From: Klebsiella terrigena
GTDB taxonomy: Bacteria > Pseudomonadota > Gammaproteobacteria > Enterobacterales > Enterobacteriaceae
Length of the DNA stretch: 54,707 bases
Direction: 5' to 3'
Assembly (NCBI RefSeq): GCF_006539725.1
Contig: NZ_BJNO01000029.1
Coordinates: forward strand, 1-54,707
Notes under the pieces: generated by a model
Seen by the model: only the letters and a program-made list of their open reading frames with translations
What the model was told of the DNA's origin: nothing
Database searches by the model: none
Part shown: piece after piece, positions 16,308 to 30,359 of the stretch
Layout: each line of letters opens with the position of its first letter
How positions within the stretch are numbered: position 1 is the stretch's first letter
Position numbers and translations under genes: made by a program

Positions 16308-17756
16308 TCAACGCGGCTGAGAACCCTCGCCCGCCATCGATGCGGCGGAAGGTTCGGATGAAAAACCGTTACTTTCCGATGGGTTATCATCGTCGTCCAG
16401 CCGGTATTCGTCGTCCTGGGCGGTTGCCTGTTCGACTAAGTCCGGATTAATCCCGCGCTTAACCTCCACCCCGAGGCCGCGAAAGGCTTCAGCCTGCACC
16501 AGCAGGTTGCCGCGACCGGAGGCCAGCTTTTTCATCGCCTGGCGGTAATTATCCTGCGCTTTGTCGAGGCTCTGGCCTATTGCGGACATGTCATCGACGA
16601 ACAGCCGCATCTTGTCGTACAGGCGGCCCGCGCGTTCGGCAATTTTCTGCGCATTGCGGCTCTGATGCTCATAGCGCCAGAGGTTGGCTATCGTGCGTAA
16701 CGCAACCAGCAGCGTGGTGGGGCTGACCAGCATAATATTGTGCTGCAGCGCTTCGCTGATAAGCTCTGGCTGGCGGTCTATCGCCAGCAGAAATGCGGGC
16801 TCAACGGGGATAAACATCAGGACATAGTCGAGCGATCGCAGCCCCGGCAGCTGCTGATAGTCTTTCCTGCCAAGCAGGCGGATATGGCTGCGCACCGAGG
16901 CAATGTGCTCCTGCAGCGCCGCCTCGCGGGCGTAATCATCTTCAGCGTTGAAGTAACGCTCATAGGCCACCAGCGTCATTTTGGCATCAATGACCACGTC
17001 TTTTCCCTGCGGCAAACGGACGATCACGTCCGGCTGCATCCGCGAGCGGTTTTCCGTTTCAATGCTGACCTGGGTCTGGTATTCGTAGCCTTCCCGCAGC
17101 CCGGAAGCCTCCAGCACGCGGGTTAAAACCACTTCCCCCCAGTTGCCCTGCGTTTTGTTATCGCCCTTAAGCGCGCGGGTCAGGTTCAGGGCTTCCTGCG
17201 CCATCCGGGTATTCAGCTGCTGCAGATTGCGGATTTCATGGGCCAGCGTGTGGCGCTCTCGCGCCTCCTGGCCGAAGCTGTCCTGTACCTGGCGACGAAA
17301 GCCGTCCAGCTGTTCACGCAGCGGCGTCAGCAGGCCGTGCAGGCTTTGTCGATTCTGCTCATCAACCCGGCGGTTGCTGTGCTCGAAAATGCGGTTCGCC
17401 AGATTTTCAAACTGCTCGCTGAGGCGCTGTTCGCTGTTCACCATCTGGCGAACTTTCTCTTCCGCATTTAGCCGGGTGGATTCGAGGCGGGTGGTGACTT
17501 CACGGAGGTCAGCCTCCAGCGAGCTATTGATATCGCGCAGGCTGCGCAGCTCATTATTCAGCAGCTCGCACTCATCGCGCCAGTGGGCCGCCTGCACCAG
17601 CTGCTGGCGGGCCGAGCTCAGCTCAATATCCAGCTCGCGCCGCTCTTCGATGAGGTCGGCACGCGTTTGATCGGCAGCGGCCTTCGTCGCCAGCCAGCCG
17701 ACGACCAGCCCTACGACCAGCGCCGCGATGGCACTTATAATAATTGAGATATCCAC
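16308..17756 (-). CDS. rmuC: DNA recombination protein RmuC
   Basis: RmuC limits inversions between short inverted repeats in E. coli and contains a domain related to restriction endonucleases. The 482-residue protein has an N-terminal membrane helix (about residues 3-24), a long coiled coil to about 150, then the conserved core with [39 protein letters not shown] and [15 protein letters not shown]. The acidic, Ser-rich tail differs from E. coli (475 residues), as expected for this region. It stands alone between udp and ubiE. Confidence 0.93.
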
Positions 17757-17851
17757 AACGCCCCCTGCTACTGCAACCGCCTACGGCACAAAAATAGAAT
17801 TGTGCTGTACAAACGTCCAGTTTAAAAGGAATTTCCTGCGAGGCGCAGCGC

Positions 17852-17879
17852 AAAAAAGAGAGGCCGGGCGAGCCGGCCT
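17852..17879 (-). terminator. Intrinsic terminator of udp
   Basis: AGGCCGG / CCGGCCT stem with a five-base loop, followed on the minus strand by TCTC and six T, about 20 bases behind the udp stop. Confidence 0.85.
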
Positions 17880-17897
17880 TCACGATAAGGGGAGGAA

Positions 17898-18659
17898 CTA
17901 CAGCAGACGGCGGGCCGCTTCAACGACAATTTTCACCGCATGGCTTTCGGTTTGCTTCATGGTTTCGGCGTTAGGAATTTCCTGCTGGGTACGGTTAACG
18001 ATAACCCCGGCAACCATCCCGGCACGCAGGCCCTGGCTGGAGCACATGGTCAGCAGCGTGGCGGATTCCATTTCGTAGTTCATGACGCCCATCGCCTGCC
18101 ACTCTGCCATCGAGCCTTTAAAACGGCTCACCACGCGACCGGAAACGGTGTCATAGCGCTCCTGGCCCGGATAGAAGGTGTCGGAAGAGGCGGTCACGCC
18201 AATATGGGTCGTTGCGCCGATTGATTTAGCCGCTTCCACCAGCGCGGTGGTGCAGGCAAAGTCAGCGACGGCCGGATATTCCATTGGCGCAAAGTGCAGG
18301 CTCGCGCCGTCAAGGCGCACGGATGCCGTGGTCACCAGCACGTCGCCAACGTTGATATTCGGCTGGATGGCGCCAGTGGTGCCGATACGCAGGAAGGTAT
18401 TGATTCCCAGCTGAGCCAGTTCTTCAACGGCAATCGACGTCGACGGGCCGCCGATACCGGTAGAGCATACGATCACCGGCTTGCCGTCAAGCTCGGCGCG
18501 CCAGGAGGTAAATTCGCGGTGCGATGCCAGCTTGACCGGCTTATCCATCAGCGCGGCGATCTTTTCCACACGCTCCGGATCGCCAGGGACGATAGCCAGC
18601 GTAGCCCCTTGTAAATCGTTTTTGGTGAGGCCGAGATGAAAAACATCAGACTTAGACAT
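17898..18659 (-). CDS. udp: Uridine phosphorylase
   Basis: Converts uridine and phosphate to uracil and ribose 1-phosphate in pyrimidine salvage. The 253 residues match E. coli. Phosphate and nucleoside site segments [44 protein letters not shown] and [13 protein letters not shown] are intact. The start [10 protein letters not shown] at 18659 is preceded by GAGGAG six bases upstream, so an in-frame upstream ATG is rejected. Two CRP-like sites 52 bp apart upstream fit CRP/CytR control as in E. coli. Confidence 0.97.
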
Positions 18660-18731
18660 AAAAAACTCCTCTGTGGGTCGAATTATCAGCAGAAGCAAAA
18701 CGGTACTTTACAGAAGCCATCCGCTTAATTT

Positions 18732-18799
18732 TGTGACACCAATCACCATGAATGAAAATCATTGCAACAATATTCCATTAAATAGTGAGTTACGTCACA
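18732..18799 (-). promoter_or_regulatory. Tandem CRP sites of the udp promoter
   Basis: TGTGACACCAATCACC (18732-18747) and AGTGAGTTACGTCACA (18784-18799) both fit TGTGA-N6-TCACA. Their centres are 52 bp apart, the spacing of CRP1 (-41.5) and CRP2 (-93.5) in E. coli udp. With CRP1 at -41.5 the start would be near 18698, and TAAAGT at 18710-18705 would be the -10. CytR probably binds between the two sites, as in E. coli. Confidence 0.8.
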
Positions 18800-18926
18800 T
18801 TAACAAGTTATATTCACCGTGCCTGAACAAAAGATAGCCTGTTTCGGGCACTGTGATTTGTTAACGTCCGGTCTTAAGAGTCTATAGTTATCGATGCGCT
18901 AATAAATTAAGGGTACGGAGAATACC

Positions 18927-19739
18927 ATGACCACAACCAAGCAACCCGGCTTTGCACCTGCAGCCACCCCGCACGCTTCTACCGCCGTTTATACGCCGGA
19001 AGAGAGCATTACCGCTGGAGAAACCTCGATCCCTTCTCAGGGCGAGAACATGCCGGCGTACCATGCCCGGCCGAAAAATAGCGATGGCCCGCTTCCGGTG
19101 GTGATCGTGGTGCAGGAAATTTTCGGCGTCCATGAGCACATCCGCGACGTCTGCCGTCGTCTGGCGCTGGAAGGCTATCTGGCGATCGCCCCAGAGCTGT
19201 ACTTTCGCCAGGGCGATCCGAACGAGTACACCGATATCCCGACGCTATTCCAGGAGCTGGTCAGCAAAGTCCCGGACTCGCAGGTGCTGGCAGACCTTGA
19301 TCATGTCGCCAGCTGGGCGGGACGTCACGGGGGCGATGCTCATCGCCTGCTGATCACCGGTTTCTGCTGGGGTGGACGCATTACCTGGCTCTATGCCGCG
19401 CATAACCCGCAGCTGAAGGCCGCCGTCGCCTGGTACGGCAAGCTGGTCGGGCAGAAAACGCTGAACTCCGCGAAGCATCCGGTGGACGTCGCCGTCGATC
19501 TTAACGCCCCGGTGCTGGGACTTTACGGCGCGAAGGATGACAGCATCCCGCAGGATACGGTAGAAACCATGCGCCAGGCGCTGCGCGCCGCCAACGCGAC
19601 GGCAGAGATCGTGGTCTACCCGCAGGCCGGCCACGCGTTTAATGCCGACTATCGTGCCAGCTACCATGAAGAGTCGGCGCAGGACGGCTGGCAGCGCATG
19701 CTGGCGTGGTTTGCTCAGTATGGCGGGAAGCGCACCTAA
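18927..19739 (+). CDS. dlhH: Dienelactone hydrolase family protein
   Basis: Alpha/beta hydrolase of the dienelactone hydrolase family, the position and length of E. coli YsgA (DlhH, 271 residues); physiological substrate unknown. The catalytic triad is visible: Cys in TGFCWGGRI (about residue 150), Asp in GAKDDSIP and His in QAGHAFNADY. The first 45 residues are a variable extension before the hydrolase core. GGAG precedes the ATG. It is divergent from udp and converges with the sulfatase operon, where a 10-bp inverted repeat follows its stop. Confidence 0.92.
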   Translation: MTTTKQPGFAPAATPHASTAVYTPEESITAGETSIPSQGENMPAYHARPKNSDGPLPVVIVVQEIFGVHEHIRDVCRRLALEGYLAIAPELYFRQGDPNEYTDIPTLFQELVSKVPDSQVLADLDHVASWAGRHGGDAHRLLITGFCWGGRITWLYAAHNPQLKAAVAWYGKLVGQKTLNSAKHPVDVAVDLNAPVLGLYGAKDDSIPQDTVETMRQALRAANATAEIVVYPQAGHAFNADYRASYHEESAQDGWQRMLAWFAQYGGKRT

Positions 19740-19858
19740 ACCGCTCTTGATTGCCGATTATGACAGTTAATCATTTCGGCAATCATCCCGTCCTCCAGCC
19801 GTGTTGTCAGGCCGCGAAGAATAAATTCATAATGCTCTGCCTGTTGCGGAGCGCACAT
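19736..19858 (-). CDS. Possible small protein of 40 residues downstream of the maturase
   Basis: An ATG at 19858 with GAAAGG four bases upstream opens a 40-codon frame beginning MCAPQQAEHYEF and ending NCHNRQSRAV, with a TAG that overlaps the dlhH stop on the other strand. It starts 13 bases after the maturase stop, in the same direction, and its codon use resembles coding sequence. Its last third contains a 10-bp inverted repeat. I do not recognise it. It may be a seventh operon gene, the remnant of a longer gene, or chance. Confidence 0.35.
   Translation of the reverse strand: MCAPQQAEHYEFILRGLTTRLEDGMIAEMINCHNRQSRAV
19748..19785. terminator. Inverted repeat between dlhH and the sulfatase operon
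   Basis: TGATTGCCGA (19748-19757) and TCGGCAATCA (19776-19785) form a 10-bp perfect stem with an 18-base loop, eight bases behind the dlhH stop. It could serve both converging transcription units. No strong T run follows on either strand. Confidence 0.5.
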
Positions 19859-19871
19859 AACGCCTTTCAGG

Positions 19872-21164
19872 TTATGTCCCGCAGCATTTTTTATACTTTC
19901 GCCGACTTCCGCACGGGCAGGGATCGTTTCGACACGCTGCCGCTAACGTCTGTTGCTCCTCTTCGGCCAGCCACTGCATGATCGCCGATGACGGGTAGCC
20001 GCTTTCCAGAAGCTGCTGCCAGACATTCATATAAGGCGTGATGTGTTTGAAAAAATGCTTATAGCCCGCACACAAATAGTTGTGACCAGGATGACCGCCC
20101 GGCGACACCGCAAAACGATGTTTTGGGCAGCCGCCATGACATACTGGCCGGAATTCGCAGCGACGACAATCCGCCGTTAACGTCGTTTCTTTCGCCTCGC
20201 CAAAAGCGATCGCCCGTTCGCTATGATTAAGCTCATGGATACTGTTCTGATGAATATTCCCCAGCTTATGTTCCGGGTAAACATAGTGATCGCAGTTGTA
20301 GAGATCGCCGTTTGATTCCAACGCAAAAGCGTGTCCGCAGGTTGCCGAATGAACGCATAGCACGGGCGGTTGCCCGGTCCAGGCCGCCAGCGCGACGTCA
20401 AACATCTGTACCGAGACTCGCTCAACATCACGTCGTATCCATACATCGAAAATCTGGCGAAGAAAATCACCAAACTGCCACGAAGGTACACTCCAGGGCG
20501 CGAGCTTTGCAGCACTTTCACCGGGCAATACCAGCTGTAACGACGACGATGAGTCGCTGCTAAGACGCTCTACCAGAGGTATAAATTGCATGTAGCGCGA
20601 ACCCGCAGCCAGCAGGAACTCATAGACCTCGCGGGCATGCTCAACGTTATGTTTACCGACAACGGTTAGCGTATTGAACTCAACATGATGTGCCTTCAGT
20701 AACGACATCGCCGCCATCACCCTTTCATGAGTGCCCTTTCCCGCGCGATTAACACGATACTGATTATGTAATTGCGCGGGACCATCTATCGACAGCCCCA
20801 CCAAAAAACGATGTTCGGCAAAAAAGCAGGCCCACGACTCGTCAAGCAGCATTCCGTTCGTCTGCAGCGCGTGCGTTATTTTTTTCCCGCCGGCATATTC
20901 GTTACATATTTCGATGACGCGATAAAAAAACGGCAGCCCCATCATCGTCGGTTCTCCCCCCTGCCAGGCAAACGTAACCGAATCACCCGACTGGGCTTCA
21001 ATATGCTGACGAATATAATTTTTCAGCGTCTCATCGGACATACGCCAGTTCGCATTACGCTCCGGGTAAAGTGCTTCTTTCTCAAGATAAAAACAGTAGG
21101 CACAATCGATATTACATACCGAACCCGTGGGCTTCGCCATCACGTGACAGCCGCTTATCGCCAT
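19872..21164 (-). CDS. Anaerobic sulfatase-maturating enzyme (radical SAM, SPASM) with C-terminal SEC-C motif
   Basis: Radical-SAM enzyme of the anSME/AslB family, which oxidises the active-site Cys or Ser of sulfatases to formylglycine. The 430-residue protein shows the CxxxCxxC cluster at Cys17, Cys21 and Cys24 (VCNIDCAYCFY), a SAM-binding segment (TFAWQGGEPTMMGL) and a SPASM region for auxiliary clusters (CGHAFALESNGDLYNCDHYV, CRRCEFRPVCHGGCPKHRF). The last 20 residues form a SEC-C zinc motif (NDPCPCGSRRKYKKCCG), not part of the core family. It is the last recognised gene of the six-gene operon, 16 bases behind a DUF202 gene, and its obvious target is the Cys-type sulfatase upstream. Confidence 0.9.
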   Translation of the reverse strand: MAISGCHVMAKPTGSVCNIDCAYCFYLEKEALYPERNANWRMSDETLKNYIRQHIEAQSGDSVTFAWQGGEPTMMGLPFFYRVIEICNEYAGGKKITHALQTNGMLLDESWACFFAEHRFLVGLSIDGPAQLHNQYRVNRAGKGTHERVMAAMSLLKAHHVEFNTLTVVGKHNVEHAREVYEFLLAAGSRYMQFIPLVERLSSDSSSSLQLVLPGESAAKLAPWSVPSWQFGDFLRQIFDVWIRRDVERVSVQMFDVALAAWTGQPPVLCVHSATCGHAFALESNGDLYNCDHYVYPEHKLGNIHQNSIHELNHSERAIAFGEAKETTLTADCRRCEFRPVCHGGCPKHRFAVSPGGHPGHNYLCAGYKHFFKHITPYMNVWQQLLESGYPSSAIMQWLAEEEQQTLAAACRNDPCPCGSRRKYKKCCGT

Positions 21165-21180
21165 GTCAGAAAAATCCTTG

Positions 21181-21513
21181 TTATTGCAGTCTGAGAAATA
21201 TCGGGAATACCAGCGACAGCGCTATAAGGCTGAGAATAAAACTCAGCAGCCGTTTAATCTGAACCGAAGAACGTGTTGTTAACTCCTCATCCCGCACCGT
21301 TTTTTTCTGCCGATAATACGAGATAACCACCAGTGCCAGGGCCAACCCTGATGCGAGGCTCCCAAGACCTGCGACTACCGCATCTCCACGGGAGAAACCG
21401 CCACGACTCACGGCCAGCGCAAGGATCAAAACGCAAAATGTCGTTCTTTGCCAGGAAAGAGCCGTTCGCTCAGGCTGAAGCCCCGGGTCGCGGAGACGTC
21501 GTCTCGTCGTCAT
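21181..21513 (-). CDS. DUF202 membrane protein (YidG-like)
   Basis: A 110-residue protein with about three membrane helices and the DUF202 entry signature PGLQPERTALSWQRTTF. It resembles E. coli YidG in size and N-terminus; function unknown. It overlaps the preceding DUF202 gene by four bases (ATGA) and is followed by the maturase. The pair is equivalent to YidG-YidH, which in E. coli also lie beside a maturase-related gene (yidF) and a sulfatase (yidJ), so a role linked to sulfatase substrates is inferred from context only. Confidence 0.82.
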   Translation of the reverse strand: MTTRRRLRDPGLQPERTALSWQRTTFCVLILALAVSRGGFSRGDAVVAGLGSLASGLALALVVISYYRQKKTVRDEELTTRSSVQIKRLLSFILSLIALSLVFPIFLRLQ

Positions 21514-21854
21514 AGCAGAAGTAATATTGCCTGGGTAAGTAATATGGTCACCGCCAGCCCGCTACTGAGCCAGACCAGCACTCCGGGATAGGCTAAATCA
21601 GTACCTTCACGCATCGCGCGCTCGTTACCCGACCAGCGGCGATAGGCGTACCAGGAAAGCAGGGCTGCCGTGAGACTCAACACGCCCACCAGCAGCTCAC
21701 GCACATTAGAGGAAGCGAGATTTTCCGCGAACTGGTCGACAGCAATAGCCATTGCCATAAACGCCAGCGCGGTACGAATCCAGGCCAGAAACGTGCGTTC
21801 ATTCGCCAATGAAAAACGGTAGTCAGGCGCTTTGCCCTCGCTTATCCATTTCAT
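21510..21854 (-). CDS. DUF202 membrane protein (YidH-like)
   Basis: A 114-residue inner-membrane protein with three predicted helices and the family signature APDYRFSLANERTFLAWIRT, nearly identical to the start of E. coli YidH (115 residues). Function unknown. It overlaps the GntR gene by four bases upstream and the second DUF202 gene by four bases downstream, so the three are almost certainly translated together. YidH was chosen over YidG as the nearer match because of the N-terminal block and the single-residue difference in length. Confidence 0.85.
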   Translation of the reverse strand: MKWISEGKAPDYRFSLANERTFLAWIRTALAFMAMAIAVDQFAENLASSNVRELLVGVLSLTAALLSWYAYRRWSGNERAMREGTDLAYPGVLVWLSSGLAVTILLTQAILLLL

Positions 21855-22576
21855 CGGCTATTCTCGACGATATACTGGTAGCAGCTGGCGATATGCTTAG
21901 CGATACCAAACTCCACCAGTTCCCCTCGCTCGTTATAGCCTCGGCGGTTTTTTACCAGCAGAGGCTCTGACGCGCTGATTTGCAGAATTTCACTATCGCT
22001 TTCCGTGGGAAGCTCCGCGGTAATAATGTCCTGGAAGCTTTCAATATTTTCGTTATTTTCCTCCAGCATGCTGTACAAGCCGCCGTCAAATGCCTCCAAC
22101 GTCAATTGACCCAGACGCGGGGTTAGCCAGATATAGTTCACCTGTGCAGGCAACTCATTTTGCCGGAAGATTGTCCTGGTCAGCCGATAGATCATGGTTC
22201 CAGCATTCAGATCGAACTCGCGTGCGATCGGCTCCGGCGGCAACAGCCGCTCCAGCTTCAGGTTATTACGTGAAATAGGATGCTGCTGTTGCCCATCCAC
22301 TAATCGAATTCGAGTTTTCACCCCCTGTTTCTCAGAGGTGCTGATAACCATCGTACCAATGCCCGCCTGGCGTTTTACCAACCCTTTCGCCACCAGCTCG
22401 GCCAGCGCCCGCCGAGCCGTAATGCGGCTCACACCAAACAACTCTTCAAACTCCGCTTCAGTCGGCAGCACATCATTTTTTTTGTAGGTGCCGGTTTTCA
22501 ACCTCTTCAGCAGAATGTCGTATAGTTGGGCGTATAAAGGTTTCGCACCACGAGAATAATCCAGCTCTTCTTTCAT
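21851..22576 (-). CDS. GntR-family (HutC/UTRA) transcriptional regulator
   Basis: A 241-residue repressor-type regulator. The N-terminal winged helix spans about residues 10-78 (PLYAQLYDILLKRLKTGTY, LPTEAEFEELFGVSRITARR, LAELVAKGLVKRQAGIGTMV), and the C-terminal UTRA effector domain ends the protein (RRGYNERGELVEFGIAKH). HutC-type regulators usually sense a sugar phosphate or related metabolite. It lies third in the sulfatase operon behind GGAGTGAG and overlaps the DUF202 gene by four bases. The 14-bp palindrome over the operon promoter at 25832-25845 is its likely operator. Confidence 0.9.
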   Translation of the reverse strand: MKEELDYSRGAKPLYAQLYDILLKRLKTGTYKKNDVLPTEAEFEELFGVSRITARRALAELVAKGLVKRQAGIGTMVISTSEKQGVKTRIRLVDGQQQHPISRNNLKLERLLPPEPIAREFDLNAGTMIYRLTRTIFRQNELPAQVNYIWLTPRLGQLTLEAFDGGLYSMLEENNENIESFQDIITAELPTESDSEILQISASEPLLVKNRRGYNERGELVEFGIAKHIASCYQYIVENSR

Positions 22577-22619
22577 AAACTTCTCACTCCGTTACCCCGG
22601 CCTCAGCCGGGGATACCAC

Positions 22620-24365
22620 TCAATCAAGTCGCATTTCTAACGCCATCTTATAGTACACACTCTGATGCTGCTCCTCCGGAACCTCGTTCTGTACGAAGGT
22701 CCACAGATTTTCGCGAGTCCATTCAGCTTCGCAGGTAGCCCGTAGTTTTGCCGCCAGCGCCTGCTGACCGCTCCCCTCCAGATGCTGGAACAACGCAAAC
22801 AGGCCATAGCGCACCTGCGGTTCAAAGTCGGCCAGTTCTGGCAACAGATGCGGGTCCAGCCCCAACAGCGGGCTCTGTTTATCATCCAGGCCATAGCGCA
22901 CGTACAGTTCACCGGGCGTATCGTTTTCCTGCATGATCCTAATCATATTTTCTCGCAGCCTCTGTGCCGCTTGTTCATCACGGCACTGGGTTTGCTGCGT
23001 CGGGTCGGTCTCTAAATCATATAAACGGTGGCCAAAGCGATCGACGCTGCGAGTCATCACCGACTCGACGGGGATTTTCATTACCGGACAGCCTTTGGTA
23101 AAACGAAACGGTGGATGCAGGGTCGTTTCACGTAGTTCCTGCGGCGTAAAGCGGCGATTGATACGGGTCGGCATCAGGGTATATTCGAACAGGCCATCAA
23201 TGCCCCTCTCAACGGGCGAGCGCATATAAACATAGCGCCCATCGGTAATATTGATATGGCAACCATGATAGCCAAACAGGGCATAGTCGCGTACCGGCGT
23301 ATCATCGCGCAGCACGGGAAGCAGCGACATGCCCTGCATATCCGCCGGTTTATCGACACCGAAACAGTCGAGAAGCGTTGCGGGAATATCGATAGTTTGC
23401 GCCAGCGCCTGGCGGGACTCCCCCGCGCCGCCGTACTGCGGATGCCAGATAAAGCAGGGTATATCCGCGACTTCGTTATACAGCGGCATAATATTTTTCC
23501 CCCACCATTCGTGCTCGCCGAGCAGAAAACCGTGGTCGGTGTTGACGATAAGCATGGTGTCGCGCCACAGATCGTAACGATCCATATAATCCAGAACTTT
23601 GCCAACATACGTATCCACCATAGTCAGCAGCGCCATATAATACTTTTGGATGACACTCTTACGTTCGGCAGTTTCGGTGACAAAATAGTAGGGCGGCCAG
23701 CCGTCGAACTGCGCAGGATCATCAATGCCGTACATCTTCAGGTACTTTTCCGGCACGAAAAACGGCTCATGCGGATCGAAACACTCCAGCTGCAAGAACC
23801 AATTGTCGCTGGCATGGTTGGTATCAATAAACTCAAGCCCCTTGCCGATCGTCCTCGCCAGATGGTGGTCTTCTTCGTTCTGCATAAACTGCACGTTAAT
23901 TTGGTGCTGCACCCGGCTGGCGATTCGTCGCTGCTTAATCTCATTCGGTTCACCCGATTCGTAGCGGTATTCTGGTTTCTTCACGACCCCCTTCCAGGCG
24001 TCGCCCTCCTGCCCGCGCACGAACTCAAAAGAACTGTAGCGCGAATGATAGGTCGCCCCGCCATCTCGCCAGTAGTGCTTATGGTCCGTCACCAGGTGAG
24101 TGTGAATACCCTTTTTCTTCAGTATTTCCGGGACAGAATCATCGAATGGCTCGAGCGGCGACCAGCCACGATGGAGAAAATTGTAGCGCCCGGTATGCAA
24201 CTCTCTACGGGCAGGCATACACGGCATGCTGCCAACGTAAAAGTTATCAAAACGCACCGTGCGCTCCCGCAGTCGCTGAAAATTCGGCGTGATCGCCCGA
24301 TCGCTGCCGTAAGCTGACAACAGACGTTTGTTCAGCGAATCAAACATCAACATAATCGCTTTCAT
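22620..24365 (-). CDS. Cysteine-type sulfatase, cytoplasmic
   Basis: A 581-residue type I sulfatase. The formylglycine signature C-x-P-x-R is CMPAR at residues 49-53, followed by RELHTGR, so it needs a maturase. Metal-site segments include MLMFDSLNKRLLS at the start and NTDHGFLLGEHEWWGKN in the middle. There is no signal peptide, so it should act in the cytoplasm; AslA-type enzymes are periplasmic. AAGGAG precedes the ATG, 21 bases behind the PTS gene. The substrate is unknown. Pairing with a PTS transporter suggests an imported sulfated sugar or sugar phosphate. Confidence 0.9.
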   Translation of the reverse strand: MKAIMLMFDSLNKRLLSAYGSDRAITPNFQRLRERTVRFDNFYVGSMPCMPARRELHTGRYNFLHRGWSPLEPFDDSVPEILKKKGIHTHLVTDHKHYWRDGGATYHSRYSSFEFVRGQEGDAWKGVVKKPEYRYESGEPNEIKQRRIASRVQHQINVQFMQNEEDHHLARTIGKGLEFIDTNHASDNWFLQLECFDPHEPFFVPEKYLKMYGIDDPAQFDGWPPYYFVTETAERKSVIQKYYMALLTMVDTYVGKVLDYMDRYDLWRDTMLIVNTDHGFLLGEHEWWGKNIMPLYNEVADIPCFIWHPQYGGAGESRQALAQTIDIPATLLDCFGVDKPADMQGMSLLPVLRDDTPVRDYALFGYHGCHINITDGRYVYMRSPVERGIDGLFEYTLMPTRINRRFTPQELRETTLHPPFRFTKGCPVMKIPVESVMTRSVDRFGHRLYDLETDPTQQTQCRDEQAAQRLRENMIRIMQENDTPGELYVRYGLDDKQSPLLGLDPHLLPELADFEPQVRYGLFALFQHLEGSGQQALAAKLRATCEAEWTRENLWTFVQNEVPEEQHQSVYYKMALEMRLD

Positions 24366-24386
24366 GCTTTACTCCTTGTTTTTCGT

Positions 24387-25802
24387 TCACGCCGTTTCTT
24401 TATCGTAACCACGTATTTTTCCGACGATATATGTCAGCACGAAGGCTGCGGCACAGCCGGTTAACCACGACATGATGTACTGTAAATATTTACCGTCTGC
24501 GATGAGAGGCAGTGCGGACAGTCCGGCCGCCCCGATGCCATTAGTCGAAACGCCCAGCAGCACCACCATCATCCCGCCGAAGCCCGCCCCAATAGAACCG
24601 GTAATAAAAGCGAATCCGGCCGGAATATTGACGCCGAAAATAGTCGGTTCACCGACAGCCAGGATGGAGGTCGGGATCGCCCCTTTGGCTATTTTCTTCA
24701 TCATCGGGTCACGCGTCAGCAGCAGTACCGCCGTCGCCGCACCAACCATTCCGGCGTTGGACATAATCTGGATGGCGAACAGCGGCGCGTGGCCGGTGGC
24801 GTTAATCATTTCAATATGAATAGGAAACAGGCCATGGTGCAGGCCAAGAGAGATTAAAAACGGGAAGAGTGCAGAGAGAACAAAGCCTGCAGCGATACCG
24901 CCGCCAGCAAGCAGGCCGTTCAGGCTATGAAGAATGCCGTCGGAAACGACTCCGGCAACGGGCATGATTACGAACAGCAACGCCGCCGCCATCACCACCA
25001 GAACAATGGTCGGAGTCACCACGACATCAACAATATCCGGGACAAAGCGGCGGACCTGTTTTTCCAGCAGACACATCAGCCAGGCGCAAAGAATGACGCC
25101 AACCAGCCCACCTTGCCCCGGGATCAGCCCCAGCGCGGTAATTTGCGGCACGATGGTGATCGCCCCCAGCAGGCCGCCCATCACCGCGTTGCCATCAAAC
25201 TCCTTCGCCGCCGTCACGCCGGTATAGATGGAGAGGAAACCAAACAGCGCCTTAGAGACGATATCAAGGAACTGGCTGACGCCCAGCATGTGCCGCTGAT
25301 CGAGCACCACCTGAGTTGGCGACAGATCGCCCAACGCCGCCACATGATGTGCCAGCGCCCAGGAGGCGGCAGAGTTCGACAGCATGTTGTTAATGCCCAT
25401 CAGGATACCGGCAGCAATCAATGACGGCAGGATGGGCACGAATATATTGGCGATATGTTTGAGAATGATTTTAGTCCGGGTCTGCTTTTTCGCCTTTTCC
25501 CGCGCCTGCTTAGCTTTTAGCTCGACGGCGCTGAGCGGGGTATCATCCGCCGGTTGCCCCTTGAGCCGGTCGTTAATCACATTGGCAACCTTCGACGATT
25601 TACCCGGCCCGACGATAACCTGCAAGGTGTCGTCCTCCACCACGCCGAGCACGCCTGCAATACTTTTAAGCGCGGTGATATCCACGAGTGATTGGTCACC
25701 GATAGTTATCCGCACGCGGGTCATACAGTTAGTGACATGCAGCAAATTGGATAAGCCGCCACAGTGCTTCACAATCGCGTTTCCCACCTGGTTGTAGTCC
25801 AT
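24387..25802 (-). CDS. PTS EIIBC permease of the sucrose/trehalose/MurNAc type
   Basis: A 471-residue sugar phosphotransferase permease. The EIIB domain is N-terminal with the phosphorylated Cys26 in TNCMTRVRI, resembling the GNCMTRLR of MurP. The EIIC domain (about residues 105-465) is polytopic and has the sugar-site motif VGEPTIFGVN. No EIIA domain is fused and none is encoded nearby, so it probably takes phosphate from the general EIIA-Glc, as MurP does. First gene of the sulfatase operon, with AAGGAA before the ATG and a CRP-like site plus palindrome upstream. Substrate unknown; a (sulfated) amino sugar or disaccharide is plausible. Confidence 0.9.
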   Translation of the reverse strand: MDYNQVGNAIVKHCGGLSNLLHVTNCMTRVRITIGDQSLVDITALKSIAGVLGVVEDDTLQVIVGPGKSSKVANVINDRLKGQPADDTPLSAVELKAKQAREKAKKQTRTKIILKHIANIFVPILPSLIAAGILMGINNMLSNSAASWALAHHVAALGDLSPTQVVLDQRHMLGVSQFLDIVSKALFGFLSIYTGVTAAKEFDGNAVMGGLLGAITIVPQITALGLIPGQGGLVGVILCAWLMCLLEKQVRRFVPDIVDVVVTPTIVLVVMAAALLFVIMPVAGVVSDGILHSLNGLLAGGGIAAGFVLSALFPFLISLGLHHGLFPIHIEMINATGHAPLFAIQIMSNAGMVGAATAVLLLTRDPMMKKIAKGAIPTSILAVGEPTIFGVNIPAGFAFITGSIGAGFGGMMVVLLGVSTNGIGAAGLSALPLIADGKYLQYIMSWLTGCAAAFVLTYIVGKIRGYDKETA

Positions 25803-25827
25803 ACAGAGGTTCCTTTATTATTTTGGC

Positions 25828-25877
25828 GGCAATTGTTATAACAATATAATGTTATCATGTTTGTGAAGGGTGTCATA
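25828..25877 (-). promoter_or_regulatory. Control region of the PTS-sulfatase operon: CRP-like site, -10 and palindromic operator
   Basis: On the minus strand, TATAAC (25840-25835) is a good -10 box. TGTGAAGGGTGTCATA (25862-25877 on the plus strand) fits the CRP consensus, with its centre exactly 41.5 bases before a start at 25828, the class II position. ATTGTTATAACAAT (25832-25845) is a 14-bp perfect palindrome lying over the -10 box and is the likely site of the operon's GntR regulator. Confidence 0.65.
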
Positions 25878-25913
25878 AAGGCGAATTAACGATCGCTATT
25901 GGGGGAAGAAACG

Positions 25914-25935
25914 AAAAAGGAGGCCGAAGCCTCCT
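25914..25935 (-). terminator. Intrinsic terminator of metE
   Basis: AGGAGGC / GCCTCCT stem with a four-base loop, followed on the minus strand by five T. It lies 188 bases behind the metE stop, after a REP-like stretch. Confidence 0.8.
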
Positions 25936-25964
25936 GAAGTAGATGTGGGATATTGGGCTGGCAT

Positions 25965-26045
25965 TACCCGGGTCGCGCTGCGCTTGGCTGGGCTACCGTC
26001 GCCCGAATCTCTGCCGGATGGCGCCTGACCTACCGCCTAAAAACT
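25965..26045. repeat. REP/BIME-like palindromic stretch
   Basis: ACCCGGGTCGCGCTGCGCTTGGCTGGGCTAC is replaced here by its key parts: CCCGGGT, CTGCGCT and GGCTGGGCTAC form one imperfect hairpin, and GCCGGATGGCG..GACCTACCG beside it resembles half of an enterobacterial REP unit. It fills part of the gap between metE and its terminator. Limits are approximate. Confidence 0.45.
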
Positions 26046-26123
26046 GCAATATCAATGGATTATGCGATTCCCGTGGGCCGATGCAAGCGCCGCACCGCCG
26101 AGCAACTTCTTGCGAGCGCTACA

Positions 26124-28385
26124 TTACGCCTGACGCAGGTTCTGCGCGGCTTTGACCATGTTCGCCAGCGCCGCACGGGTTTCCGGCCAGCCGCGAGTCT
26201 TCAGTCCGCAGTCCGGGTTAACCCACAGACGCTCCGCCGGGATGCGCTGAGCGGCCTTCTCCAGCAGGGCTTCAATCCACGCCACGCTCGGGACGTTAGG
26301 CGAGTGGATGTCATACACGCCCGGGCCGATTTCGTTCGGATATTCGAACTCCTCGAACGACTCCAGCAGCTCCATGTCGGAACGCGAGGTCTCAATGGTA
26401 ATCACGTCCGCATCCAGCGCGGCGATAGAATCCATGATGTCATTGAACTCGCAGTAACACATATGGGTATGGATCTGGGTATCATCCTGCGCCACGGCGG
26501 CGTTGATACGGAAGGCTTCCACGCCCCACTGCAGGTATGCATCCCAGTCGCTCCGCTTCAGGGGCAGGCCTTCTCGCAGCGCCGGTTCATCAATCTGGAT
26601 AATGCCGATACCGGCCGCTTCCAGATCCGCCACTTCGTCACGCAGCGCCAGCGCAATCTGCTTCGCGATGGTTTCGCGGCTGACGTCTTCGCGGGGGAAT
26701 GACCAGCACAGGATCGTCACCGGACCGGTGAGCATGCCTTTCACCGGCTTGTCGGTAAGAGACTGCGCGTATTTCGCCCACTCAACGGTGATAGCTTCCG
26801 GGCGGCTGACGTCGCCAATCACCACCGGCGGCTTGACGCAGCGCGAACCGTAGCTCTGCACCCAGCCGTTTTGCGTAAAGATAAAGCCGTCGAGGTGCTC
26901 ACCGAAATACTCCACCATGTCGTTACGCTCGGCTTCACCGTGCACCAGCACGTCGAGACCTAAACGCTCCTGCTCAACGATCGCCTGCTTAATATGCTCC
27001 GCGATGCCGGTACGGTAGTTATTAGCGTCGAGATTGCCTTTCTTGAAGTCCAGGCGCAGGCCGCGAATTTCGGTGGTCTGCGGGAAAGAGCCGATGGTCG
27101 TGGTCGGCCACGCCGGCAGGTTAAAGCGGCTGCGCTGGGCCTGGGCACGCTCTGCGTACGGGCTGTTGCGCTGGCTGTCCCGGGCGGTAATGGCCGCCAG
27201 ACGTTTTTCCACCGCGGCGTTGTGTACGCGAGTTGAGTGACGGCGGGCCTGAATCGGCGCGCTCCACGCCTCAATGGCGCCGGTATCGCCGCTGTTCAGC
27301 GCATCGCGCAGCAGCGCCAGCTCGGCGCATTTTTGCAGAGCGAAGGCAAACCAGCTTTTCACCTCCGCATCCAGGCGGGTTTCCACGCTCAGGTCGATCG
27401 GGCTGTGCAGCAGGGAGCAGGAGGAGGCGACCCACAGCTGACGTTTGCCGACGATCTCTTTAATTTGCGCATATTTCTCGGTGAGATCTGCACGCCAGAC
27501 GTTACGACCGTTGACCAGGCCCGCGGAGAGCAGCCAGTCTGACGGCAGGCGCGCGTGCAGCCCGGCAACATCATCTTTACCGTGAACCAGGTCAACGTGC
27601 AGACCCTGCACCGGCAGCGCGGTGATGACGTCGAGGTTGGCGCTAACCCCTTCAAAATAGGTGGTCAGCAGCAGCTTAACCTGGCCCTGCAGCGCGTCGT
27701 ATGCCGGCTTGAAGGCATCCAGCCACGCCTGCGGCAGCTCCAGCACCAGCGCCGGCTCATCAATCTGCACCCACTCAACGCCGCGTTTTGCCAGCTCAGC
27801 CAGCACCTGCTGATAGACCGGCAGAATGTCATTCAGCAGCGCCAGGCGATCGAACTGCTCGCCCTTCACTTTACCCAGCCACAGATAAGTAACCGGGCCA
27901 AGCAGCACGGGCTTCACCTTATGGCCCAGCGCCAGCGCTTCGTCAACTTCGTCCAGCAGCTGGGTCCAGGTCAGTTTGAACGCCTGACCTTTCACAAACT
28001 CCGGCACCATGTAGTGATAGTTGGTGTTAAACCATTTGGTCATTTCCGCCGCTGCCGCCGGCTCACCGGTCGGCGCGCGGCCGCGGCCAATGCGGAACAG
28101 CGTATCGATATCGACGGAGCCGTCTTTGTTCTGATGACGAGCCGGCACGTTGCCCAGAAGCAGGCTGGTAGTCAGAACATGGTCGTACCAGGCGAAATCG
28201 CCCACCGGCAGCAGATCGATACCCGCCTGCTTTTGCTGATCCCAGTGGCGAGCGCGCAGCTCACGGCCCGCTGCCAGCAGCTCTTCACGGGTTGCGTTAC
28301 CCGCCCAGTAGCTCTCTTGCGCTTTTTTCAGCTCGCGGCGAAGACCAACGCGAGGGAAACCGAGGGTGTGATTGATAATTGTCAT
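26124..28385 (-). CDS. metE: Cobalamin-independent methionine synthase
   Basis: Transfers the methyl group from 5-methyltetrahydrofolate-triglutamate to homocysteine. The 753 residues equal E. coli MetE. Zinc and homocysteine ligands are visible: His641 and Cys643 in [11 protein letters not shown], Glu665 in [10 protein letters not shown] and Cys726 in [10 protein letters not shown]. The start [12 protein letters not shown] at 28385 is preferred over an in-frame ATG 19 codons upstream because GAGG precedes it and it matches the family. Divergent from metR, which activates it. Confidence 0.98.
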
Positions 28386-28429
28386 TTTTTGAGCCTCATG
28401 ATGTGCCAATCCTAAGGATTTTAAATTCA

Positions 28430-28530
28430 GAGAAGGCGGCAAGTTTGCTCATCCCCGGGAGATTACATAAGTAAGTGACCGGGGTGAGGAAGTGCGGCCA
28501 ACGCACCATAAATTCGAAAGATAAAGGATT
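28430..28530. repeat. ERIC-like element in the metE-metR gap
   Basis: CATCCCCGGGAGATTACATA and AGTAAGTGACCGGGGTGAGG at 28451-28490 are close to the conserved ERIC centre, followed by GCGGCCAACGCAC as in the consensus. The outer edges are uncertain. It lies between the metE start and the Met boxes. Confidence 0.8.
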
Positions 28531-28531
28531 T

Positions 28532-28547
28532 AGACGTCCAGATGTTT
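28532..28547. promoter_or_regulatory. Tandem MetJ (Met) boxes between metE and metR
   Basis: AGACGTCC followed directly by AGATGTTT matches two tandem eight-base Met boxes (consensus AGACGTCT), seven and five matches of eight. A third weaker copy may follow. Position fits MetJ-SAM repression of metR, and possibly metE. Confidence 0.7.
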
Positions 28548-28606
28548 ACACATCCATAATTGGCGGTTACTGTATATTCCTCAAGCGCAAATTATTCATG
28601 CCGAAG

Positions 28607-28619
28607 TGAAGGACTTTCA
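28607..28619 (+). promoter_or_regulatory. MetR-type site overlapping the metR ribosome site
   Basis: TGAAGGACTTTCA fits the MetR consensus TGAA-N5-TTCA perfectly. It contains the AAGGA ribosome site of metR and its last base is the A of the metR ATG. Confidence 0.6.
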
Positions 28620-29572
28620 TGATCGAAATTAAACACCTGAAAACGCTGCTGGCGTTGCGGAATAGCGGTTCACTCGCGGGCGCTGCGGCGGCCCTGCACC
28701 AGACCCAATCCGCCCTGTCCCACCAGTTCAGCGATCTGGAACAGCGCCTTGGCTTCCGTCTGTTTGTGCGTAAAAGTCAGCCTTTGCGCTTCACCGCGCA
28801 GGGCGAAATTTTGCTGCAGCTAGCACACCAGGTGCTGCCGCAAATCACCCGCGCCCTGCAGGACTGTAACGAGCCGCAGCAAACCCGGCTGCGCATCGCC
28901 ATTGAGTGTCATAGCTGCATACAGTGGCTGACGCCGGCGCTCGAGAGCTTCCGCGCCAGCTGGCCGCACGTTGAGGTTGATTTCCAGTCCGGGGTGACCT
29001 TTGACCCGCAGCCCGCGCTCCAGCAGGGCGAGCTGGATCTGGTGATGACGTCCGATATTCTGCCGCGCAGCGGGCTGCACTATTCGCCGATGTTTGATTT
29101 TGAAGTGCGCCTGGTGCTGGCGCCGGATCATCCGCTGGCCTTGAAAACGCGGATTGTGCCGGAAGACCTGGCCGCAGAGCTGCTGCTGATTTACCCGGTG
29201 CAACGCAGTCGCCTGGATATCTGGCGCCACTTTCTGCAGCCGGCAGGTATCAGCCCGCAGCTGAAGAGCGTCGATAATACGCTGCTGCTCATTCAGATGG
29301 TTGCCGCGCGGATGGGCATCGCGGCGCTGCCGCACTGGGTGGTGGAGAATTTTGAACGCCAGGGTCTGGTGGTCACCAAAACCCTGGGTGAAGGCCTGTG
29401 GAGCCGGCTATACTCCGCCGTGCGCGACGGCGAGCAGCGTCAGCCGGTTACCGAAGCATTTATTCGCTCAGCGCGGAACCACGCTTGCGATCATCTGCCG
29501 TTTGTCCGGAGTGCGGAGCGACCCAATGGCGATGGACCCACAGCGAGGCCAGGATCACCAGAGCCCCGATAA
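28619..29572 (+). CDS. metR: LysR-type regulator of methionine genes MetR
   Basis: Homocysteine-responsive LysR regulator that activates metE and others and represses itself. The 317 residues equal E. coli. The N-terminal helix-turn-helix is [20 protein letters not shown] and [20 protein letters not shown]; the effector domain begins around residue 90. It is divergent from metE. Its last 113 bases overlap the 3' end of yigM on the other strand. The final 25 residues, encoded in the overlap, remain similar to the E. coli tail. Confidence 0.97.
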
Positions 29573-30359
29573 TAAAGCTCGGCCAGTGGGGCTGTTCCTG
29601 CCAGATGGCAAGGTTAACCAGCAGCCCGGCTGGAACATGGACGTTATTCATGATGCCCAGCGTTCCGGCATCCACCTGCGTCGCCCCGTAGTTCCACATA
29701 AAGTACCCCAACCCTGAAGCCACCACGCCAAGCCATACCAGAATGCTCCACTGCACCGTGGTCGTCGGCAGCCTGTGCGGGTTGCCCAGCATAAGCCAGG
29801 CCGCTACCGCCACCAGTAGCGCTCCCATATAGAACCACGCAAAAGCGTTGTGCTGGGGCATCGGCCGCAGCTCCATCAGGCGTTTGTAGCCCACCATGCC
29901 GATGGCAAAGCAGATATTCGACAGCTGAACCAGCAGCAGCCCGGTCCAGAAATGATCGCTCACTTTATCGTAGCGAATAATGGCCGCCCCCAGCACCGCC
30001 AGCCCGGCGCTGAGCAGATAGCCCCAGCGCAGCCTGCGCCCGCTGATCAGGTCATAAATCAGGGTGATATAGAGCGGCGTAAACACCGTAAACAGCAGAA
30101 ATTCGGAGACCGTCAGGTAGAGGTAAGCGCGGAACGCCAGCAGATACATGATGCCAAGCTGCATGGCCCCTACCAGCATATACAGCACGATAGTCCGCGG
30201 CGACTGCCCGCGGGTGCGCAAAAACGGCAGGAATACCAGCGCCGCCAGCCCAACGCGCATCAGCACCGAAAAATAGCTATCAACGCTGCCCGCCAGGTAC
30301 TCGCCGATCAGGCTAAAGGAGAAGGCCCACAGGATGGTGGTAATAATCAGTAGCGCCAC
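29460..30359 (-). CDS. yigM: Biotin importer YigM (EamA family)
   Basis: Inner-membrane carboxylate/biotin transporter of the drug/metabolite (EamA) superfamily; in E. coli YigM is the biotin importer. The 299 residues equal E. coli, with ten predicted helices in two EamA repeats (start [20 protein letters not shown]). The C-terminal tail after the last helix (about 33 residues) is encoded by the segment that overlaps metR. The upstream neighbour yigL lies on the same strand 88 bases away. Confidence 0.92.

Follow-up and report, generated by a model that had tools for sequence, protein, structure and literature searches.

What becomes of the sulfate when a bacterium desulfates its food inside the cytoplasm is the question raised by a six-gene operon of Klebsiella terrigena, which combines a phosphotransferase system (PTS) carrier, a sulfatase, a GntR-type regulator, two small membrane proteins of the DUF202 family and a radical SAM sulfatase maturase (anSME). 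The operon reads leftwards between dlhH and metE (19872–25802) on contig NZ_BJNO01000029.1, the whole of which (54,707 nt) is referred to here as the window. We regard it, at a probability of about two in three, as a mobile operon under its own control that provides for the use of a sulfated sugar as carbon source, with the DUF202 pair predicted to export the freed sulfate. Sets of PTS, sulfatase and maturation genes are already known from pneumococcus, and the new and testable part is the DUF202 function. The pneumococcal accessory island likewise joins a PTS, a putative sulfatase and a sulfatase-modifying factor in one region, its substrate also being unknown, but it has a cellobiose-type PTS and a ROK protein, and in the accessible portion of its description hypothetical proteins are mentioned whereas DUF202 is not (PMC3283741).

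Operon structure and proposed pathway

The gene families, catalytic motifs, gene order and regulatory layout of the operon are established by sequence, as is the finding that at the surveyed loci DUF202 accompanies cytoplasmic but not secreted sulfatases. The original prediction, made from the letters of the window alone, had described six leftward genes with short gaps or four-base overlaps, and all six open reading frames (ORFs) were recovered, with gaps in transcript order of 21, 43, -4, -4 and 16 bases; its family assignments (EIIBC, CMPAR-type sulfatase, GntR/UTRA regulator, two DUF202 proteins and anSME) were borne out by the Pfam and NCBIfam scores (Table 1). The EIIBC protein has no IIA domain and falls in the Glc superfamily (sucrose/MurNAc/beta-glucoside-like), with an NCMTRVR motif at residue 25, the Cys of which we take to be the phospho-cysteine. 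Its best NCBIfam model was the sucrose PTS IIBC TIGR01996, at 257.6 bits under a cut-off of 559.3, and it is classed as a Glc-family carrier, the specificity of which is not given by that model. The sulfatase carries CMPAR at residues 49–53, matching the C-x-P-x-R sulfatase maturation motif, with C49, P51 and R53 invariant in 15 aligned sequences, and the alkaline-phosphatase-like sulfatase fold was present in a fold comparison. No signal peptide was detected in it by hydropathy, which together with the carrier and maturase in the same operon supports the predicted PTS uptake and cytoplasmic desulfation. The anSME contains the radical SAM motif CX3CX2C at residues 17–24 (C17NIDCAYC24), and its closest solved structures are the anSME entries 4k36/4k37.

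Of the 19 loci examined, 12, including the window, have all six genes in the same order, and because of this shared order the six-gene set is beyond chance. The conserved order agrees with the single accessory operon first proposed, and the check on which that proposal had been staked, co-occurrence of these families elsewhere, was run and found them together. One six-gene copy is carried on a conjugative plasmid of Serratia entomophila, and at two Providencia loci DUF202 sits on the opposite side of EIIBC. A sulfatase match at E ≤ 1e-100 was present in 38/392 genomes of the window's bacterial family, seven of them (the window's included) with at least 77% identity; the nearest named sulfatases, among the best 80 of 355 stretches, were those of Klebsiella spallanzanii (92%) and K. 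oxytoca (91%), and a DNA search of 20,395 E. coli records gave no near match.

We infer a carbon-source role, the use of EIIA-Glc, phosphorylation before desulfation, the sugar identity, CRP and GntR action and sulfate export, in the following pathway. The EIIBC protein, served by the cell's own EIIA-Glc, would import and phosphorylate the sulfated sugar, the anSME would convert Cys49 of the sulfatase into formylglycine, and the cytoplasmic sulfatase would strip the sulfate from the sugar phosphate, yielding a glucose-type phosphate for glycolysis. The DUF202 pair would most likely form a small Vtc1-like anion pore as exit for the released sulfate, while the GntR protein would repress a CRP-activated promoter via a palindrome overlapping the -10 element.

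DUF202 genes and cytoplasmic sulfatases

Since anSMEs serve secreted as well as cytoplasmic sulfatases, they provide a natural control for the association with DUF202. We examined 124 anSME loci, comprising 64 of the 69 matches listed for the window's bacterial family and 60 of the 97 outside it (same order), of which 103 had a sulfatase of at least 350 aa within 5 kb and entered the test, DUF202 being counted within 6 kb of the anSME; the other 21 (including L249, a fragment) were left out. DUF202 was near the anSME at 26/36 loci with a cytoplasmic sulfatase vs 0/67 with a secreted one, TauE at 6/36 vs 0/67, and either or both at 31/36 vs 0/67. The DUF202 difference was seen within the bacterial family (22/26 vs 0/33) and outside it (4/10 vs 0/34), and after collapsing by sulfatase identity at 35% (3/5 vs 0/11, p 0.018), 45% (3/5 vs 0/19, p 0.005) and 60% (6/10 vs 0/26, p 0.0001), with DUF202 and/or TauE at 45% giving 4/5 vs 0/19 (p 0.0005). 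In the cluster of YidJ-type sulfatases, DUF202 was present at 16/16 loci. Location was assigned by a crude hydropathy rule, with seven rows set by reading N-termini, of which only L264 changed class, a YidJ-type sulfatase whose mechanical ORF start is too early and whose class depends on the reading of the start. The unaided rule, with L264 as secreted, gave 25/35 vs 1/68, and an alternative location rule gave 26/40 vs 0/61, with four visible signal sequences (L255, L256, L275, L301) called cytoplasmic and two unclear. Distant DUF202 members may have escaped the profile, which derives from the loci fetched here, but it was applied alike to both classes. The association fits handling of the product of cytosolic desulfation rather than maturation.

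The TauE/SafE exporters (PF01925), a protein family unrelated to DUF202, resemble it in being located near sets of cytoplasmic sulfatase and anSME, and five of the six such loci are without DUF202. TauE is described as a sulfite exporter (PMC12421959), and it might also transport sulfate. One TauE-containing locus (L251:4531–13461) holds RhaA, an FGGY kinase, a rhamnose mutarotase, a cytoplasmic sulfatase, an anSME, DUF202, TauE and a regulator with a cyclic-nucleotide-binding domain, and looks like a locus for cytosolic use of sulfated rhamnose.

Searching the Protein Data Bank (PDB) with the single DUF202a sequence returned, up to E 10, only four chains of Vtc1 (E 0.26–0.45), and a profile of 23 DUF202a sequences matched Vtc1 over positions 17–111 at E 2.7e-4 to 6.8e-4, which makes the two proteins distant homologues. 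Arginines R13, R20 and R27 are invariant in the 23 proteins; R20 of the window protein, the NERT arginine, aligns with Vtc1 R31, and R13 falls on Vtc1 K24 only when one more residue is added to the alignment. In the structure of the yeast VTC complex, five TM1 helices form the channel, which is lined by Vtc1 K24 and R31, the latter at its narrowest point (PMC9911596). Vtc1 thus shares with DUF202a the fit to its profile and the NERT arginine in TM1, but belongs to a eukaryotic vacuolar complex with a polymerase and moves polyphosphate (PMC9911596). We tentatively suggest that in cells with cytoplasmic desulfation the paired DUF202 proteins (YidH/YidG type) act as a pore devoted to sulfate efflux, similar in build to the Vtc1 channel and a counterpart of TauE, and that the orphan yidFGH genes of E. 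coli may be leftovers of such a system, kept despite a truncated maturase; the odds we give to this are a little under even.

Several observations weigh against the proposed operon function and sulfate export. There is relatedness among the surveyed loci, the profile match to Vtc1 is weak, and the operon contains no phospho-glycosidase. The DUF202 pair alone is missing at 4/19 cassette loci (K. spallanzanii, K. oxytoca, Tenebrionibacter and Enterobacter sp. kpr-6), and the Thaumasiovibrio locus (L082) holds the first three genes only. Conversely, DUF202 occurs without a usable sulfatase: among the 21 loci left out of the test it was present in five (L243, L244, L257, L267, L298), with TauE in three (L267, L284, L296); yidHG of the window genome adjoins an alpha-glucoside PTS and a GH4 gene, with no sulfatase; and DUF202 is carried by 95/246 genomes of the bacterial family. 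A strict replacement of DUF202 by TauE is weakened by L251 and L267, which have both, so that one is no simple substitute for the other, and TauE was found in 8/8 genomes and 14/14 control genomes searched, which leaves only its adjacency informative. Finally, overexpressed YidH scored in a screen for D-alanine exporters, with intracellular D-alanine not lowered (PMC10299036); apart from this paper, none of the open-licence papers retrieved appeared, judged by title, to be on the subject. Those naming both DUF202 and sulfatase concern, by their titles, iron deficiency in Bacteroidetes and Mycobacterium phylogenomics, and the one that combines several of the yid gene names is a genome announcement with no mention of sulfatase.

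Sulfatase family, carriers and substrate

Relatives of the sulfatase were collected by a scan of named genomes (355 stretches, best 80 kept), and a FastTree phylogeny of 90 sulfatases, several on long branches, was labelled with the nearest neighbouring transporter, 20/90 rows receiving no label. In the window's branch (55 rows), a PTS transporter is encoded no more than 3 kb away for 53 rows, the carriers being EIIBC (23), GlcB-like IIBC (21, one clade), beta-glucoside-type IIABC (7, one clade) and another IIC (2). Outside this branch the neighbours are of the ABC, IIC+IIB and GPH types, none being seen for 18 rows. The variety of carriers on the sulfatase tree indicates that they have been exchanged inside this family.

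Two groups of relatives illustrate the exchange. Loci of type B (Atlantibacter, Citrobacter, Kluyvera, Vibrio and others) share with the window the sulfatase family (50–60% identity) and, within 6.5 kb, an anSME (17/21) and DUF202 (17/21), but have a GlcB-like IIBC, an aldose epimerase and an RpiR-type regulator; one such carrier scored 543.5 bits as GlcB-like (cut-off 591.8) and is accompanied by an aldose 1-epimerase. Of the type A and B genomes lacking a DUF202 pair at the locus, six were checked, and each has a pair elsewhere in the genome, as do two other genomes searched alongside. Loci of type C (Bacillota) have the same sulfatase family (47–53%) with a PTS and differ in carrying, in various members, a formylglycine-generating enzyme (FGE) as maturase, TauE, a GH1 or GH4 glycosidase and an RpiR/BglG regulator, with no DUF202 seen at the loci examined. 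A Gracilibacillus carrier is a beta-glucoside IIABC (755.7 bits, cut-off 614.7), Shouchella has a 6-phospho-beta-glucosidase (693.6 bits, cut-off 639) and Amphibacillus a GH4 enzyme.

What these relatives would have in common is a glucose-type sugar that is phosphorylated as it enters the cell, and for the window operon a glucose-type sugar or glucoside is favoured. Possible candidates are sulfated glucose, sulfotrehalose, glucosinolates and sulfated hexosamines. The fold comparison, in which sugar sulfatases could not be told apart from arylsulfatases or phosphonate hydrolases, says nothing on the substrate.

The sulfatase C-terminal part (approximately residues 495–581; 22620–22883) is absent from relatives of about 490 aa in the alignment and tree. 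It occurs in long, mostly PTS-linked sulfatases, and could possibly recognise the phosphorylated sugar or the carrier. A strict link between this extension and a PTS was ruled out, as the IIC+IIB-linked sulfatases of L041, L042, L058 and L059 are short, and those of L060 (with a GPH-family carrier) and L122 are long with no PTS seen. L041 (NZ_CP077309.1, 607 kb) and L042 (CP088669.1, 730 kb) are labelled as plasmids, yet contain chromosomal-looking gene runs (for example ibpAB-dgo or pot-art) and may be chromosome pieces.

Other functions can be proposed for these genes. The DUF202 pair could, instead of exporting, serve as a membrane scaffold by which the cytoplasmic sulfatase is recruited to the transporter, or as a maturation helper, a reading that is quite possible though short of probable: the nearer DUF202 gene lies at most 113 bp from the anSME at 19 of the 22 loci of the bacterial family with DUF202 and a cytoplasmic sulfatase (about 5.2 kb at the other three, all type B), and the Vtc1 N-terminus of yeast VTC couples an enzyme to the channel (PMC9911596). 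Secreted sulfatases use the same anSME family, however, and the absence of the pair near all 67 of them makes a general maturation role unlikely, while TauE is near the anSME at some loci without DUF202. Within its superfamily, the enzyme itself might be one that acts on phosphodiesters or phosphonate monoesters, since its best NCBIfam model is PehA (114.6 bits of a cut-off of 900) and phosphonate monoester hydrolases rank alongside sulfatases in the sequence and fold comparisons; with relatives and other cytoplasmic members adjoining TauE exporters and sugar genes, and N-acetylglucosamine-6-sulfatase 5g2v as best PDB sequence match, we judge this quite improbable. Sulfatases in general can serve sulfur scavenging, and the operon might accordingly free sulfate for cysteine synthesis without the sugar being a carbon source. 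This, too, appears unlikely, given the CRP-like box and PTS carrier, which point to carbon control, the exporter-like partners, which would waste sulfate, and the six genes, none of which is a cysteine or sulfate assimilation gene. Uptake and desulfation of a sulfated sugar as carbon source stays our preferred reading.

Regulation and origin of the operon

The operon is preceded by metE, which is co-directional with it and followed by a hairpin that is similarly present in the empty site of a close relative; a CRP-like box and a perfect palindrome, the candidate GntR operator, are both located between this hairpin and the EIIBC start (Table 1). In a comparison of 16 related upstream regions (omitting Thaumasiovibrio, both Providencia loci and further copies from genomes already represented), TTATATTGTTATAACAA was present in 16/16, and the CRP-like box lay 17 bp from the operator in 16/16 by a pattern that was relaxed only after the sequences had been looked at, the exact box being found in 13/16. 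The operator 17-mer has a single mismatch-free occurrence in the whole genome, and the layout accompanies the cassette, including the copy on the Serratia plasmid (L040). As operator and CRP-like box are common to all 16 regions, the operon is self-contained and probably carbon-regulated. A CRP centre at -41.5 is class II geometry, and such a position would place a candidate -10 hexamer, TATAAC, within the palindrome, where GntR binding would shut out RNA polymerase.

The adjacency of dlhH and metE in E. coli on which the original prediction relied was found in E. coli K-12 (gap 49 bp), and an accessory insertion holds against E. coli and against one close relative (G402), whose flanks are 95.1% (over 4371 bp) and 96.6% (over 1334 bp) identical to the window and enclose an empty site of just 97 bp. 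One clean insertion event is too simple, the history of the site being longer. Among 20 genus genomes, all with dlhH, the dlhH-metE interval contains the operon in four, measures 68–97 bp in five and 841–909 bp in eight, and has metE beyond the approximately 11 kb fetched in three. The eight intervals of 841–909 bp gave a full-length match to a solute-binding-protein-like gene, which in K. oxytoca and others is likewise intact and lies between the maturase and dlhH (PF00497, 47.3 bits in the K. oxytoca copy), and of which the window retains a remnant that speaks against a simple single insertion. Judged from these intervals, more than one element has come and gone at the site, and the operon is accessory.

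The operon had also been tentatively derived from the E. coli yid genes by an exchange of transporter. E. coli yidK-yidJ-yidH-yidG-yidF is similar in having a cytoplasmic sulfatase, a DUF202 pair and an anSME or its remnant, the core common to both loci being DUF202a-DUF202b-anSME, but differs in sulfatase subfamily, in the YidK transporter (a symporter according to that prediction), in the regulator YidL adjoining yidK-yidJ, and in genomic site. YidF had been called maturase-related, correctly so: the 165-aa protein gave 75 bits to positions 160–245 of the 363 in the anSME model, and a second piece matches the C-terminal half of the window's maturase, which makes YidF the rest of a maturase. 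Truncated anSMEs without the radical SAM half lie beside yidGH in E. coli K-12 (yidF, L039:5115–5612) and in the window genome (L153:8124–8627), which has a yidHGF set without yidJ on another contig, and in other genera a full-length anSME occupies the yidF place. Another yid locus (L062, genome G009) brings together an aryl-sulfate sulfotransferase-like gene, a sulfatase, a full anSME, YidG, YidH, a GPH-like carrier, a GH4 enzyme, an alpha-glucoside PTS and a GntR regulator.

A swap of symporter for PTS in the yid module would account for the homology of DUF202a/b and anSME in both loci, and yidK-yidJ-yidH-yidG is followed by a full-length anSME in L161 (467 bits), L162, L165, L173 and L175. 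It is nevertheless very unlikely, and as a simple exchange ruled out: YidJ and the window sulfatase share 24% identity over 374 residues, too little for orthology, and never fall in one cluster down to 35%; the regulators (GntR/UTRA vs YidL) differ, and the window genome holds its separate yidHGF set as well. Not the carrier alone but sulfatase, carrier and regulator all differ from the yid set; a swap of carriers did occur within the window's own sulfatase family. An ancestral presence of the operon at dlhH-metE followed by many losses, instead of an insertion, is a more serious possibility, although we lean against it. In Phytobacter, Tenebrionibacter and Enterobacter sp. kpr-6, as in the window's genus, the operon occupies this same interval, accompanied in two of these by additional genes, and the remnant gene is common to the window and K. 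oxytoca; set against this, its GC content of 0.51–0.56 is below the 0.59–0.62 of the flanking genes, other genera carry the cassette at other sites and on a plasmid, and 16 of the 20 genus genomes are without the operon at this site.

Table 1. Positions of operon genes, regulatory elements and flanking features in the window
Feature	Position	Strand	Evidence
dlhH, left flank	18927..19739	+	ORF list, flank comparison
Remnant, approximately the last 34 codons of a solute-binding-protein-like gene	19760..19858	-	47% identity, E 1.6e-5
anSME (radical SAM + SPASM + SEC-C)	19872..21164	-	TIGR03942 501.5 bits (cut-off 349.45); SPASM 37.2; PF02810 36.6
DUF202b (YidG-like), small membrane protein	21181..21513	-	PF02656 45.5 bits; YidG 33% identity
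DUF202a (YidH-like), small membrane protein	21510..21854	-	PF02656 63.1 bits; YidH 49% identity
GntR/UTRA (HutC-type) regulator	21851..22576	-	PF00392 62.8 bits; PF07702 77 bits
Sulfatase, cytoplasmic, formylglycine-type, 581 aa	22620..24365	-	PF00884 115.7 bits (cut-off 25)
PTS EIIBC	24387..25802	-	PF02378 97.1 bits (cut-off 30.7); PF00367 39.8 bits (cut-off 27)
Perfect 14-bp palindrome ATTGTTATAACAAT, candidate GntR operator	25832..25845	.	TTATATTGTTATAACAA in 16/16 upstream regions; one exact genome site
CRP-like box TATGA-N6-TCACA	25862..25877	-	17 bp upstream of 12-bp operator core
Terminator-like hairpin 3′ of metE	25918..25935	-	separates metE from operon
metE, right flank	26124..28385	-	ORF list, flank comparison; listed ORF extends to upstream TTG at 28442

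The window genome (5.51 Mb, 54 contigs) has eight sulfatase matches, three anSMEs above cut-off and two DUF202 pairs. On another of its contigs (G000:C18; L154:4510–17435), two secreted sulfatase-anSME pairs, approximately 13 kb apart end to end, face each other across genes that by eye are MoxR/VWA-like. The window maturase ends in a SEC-C zinc motif (PF02810), and a like tail was seen by eye in L073, L085 and L075. An Rfam search of positions 17000–30000 of the window gave no match above the gathering scores.

Sulfated sugars are common in gut mucin and in algae, and the operon offers a concrete system in which to ask whether enteric bacteria use such sugars through the PTS. It also suggests a testable function for DUF202, which in Pfam is a family of unknown function, and a possible origin for the E. 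coli genes yidF, yidG and yidH.

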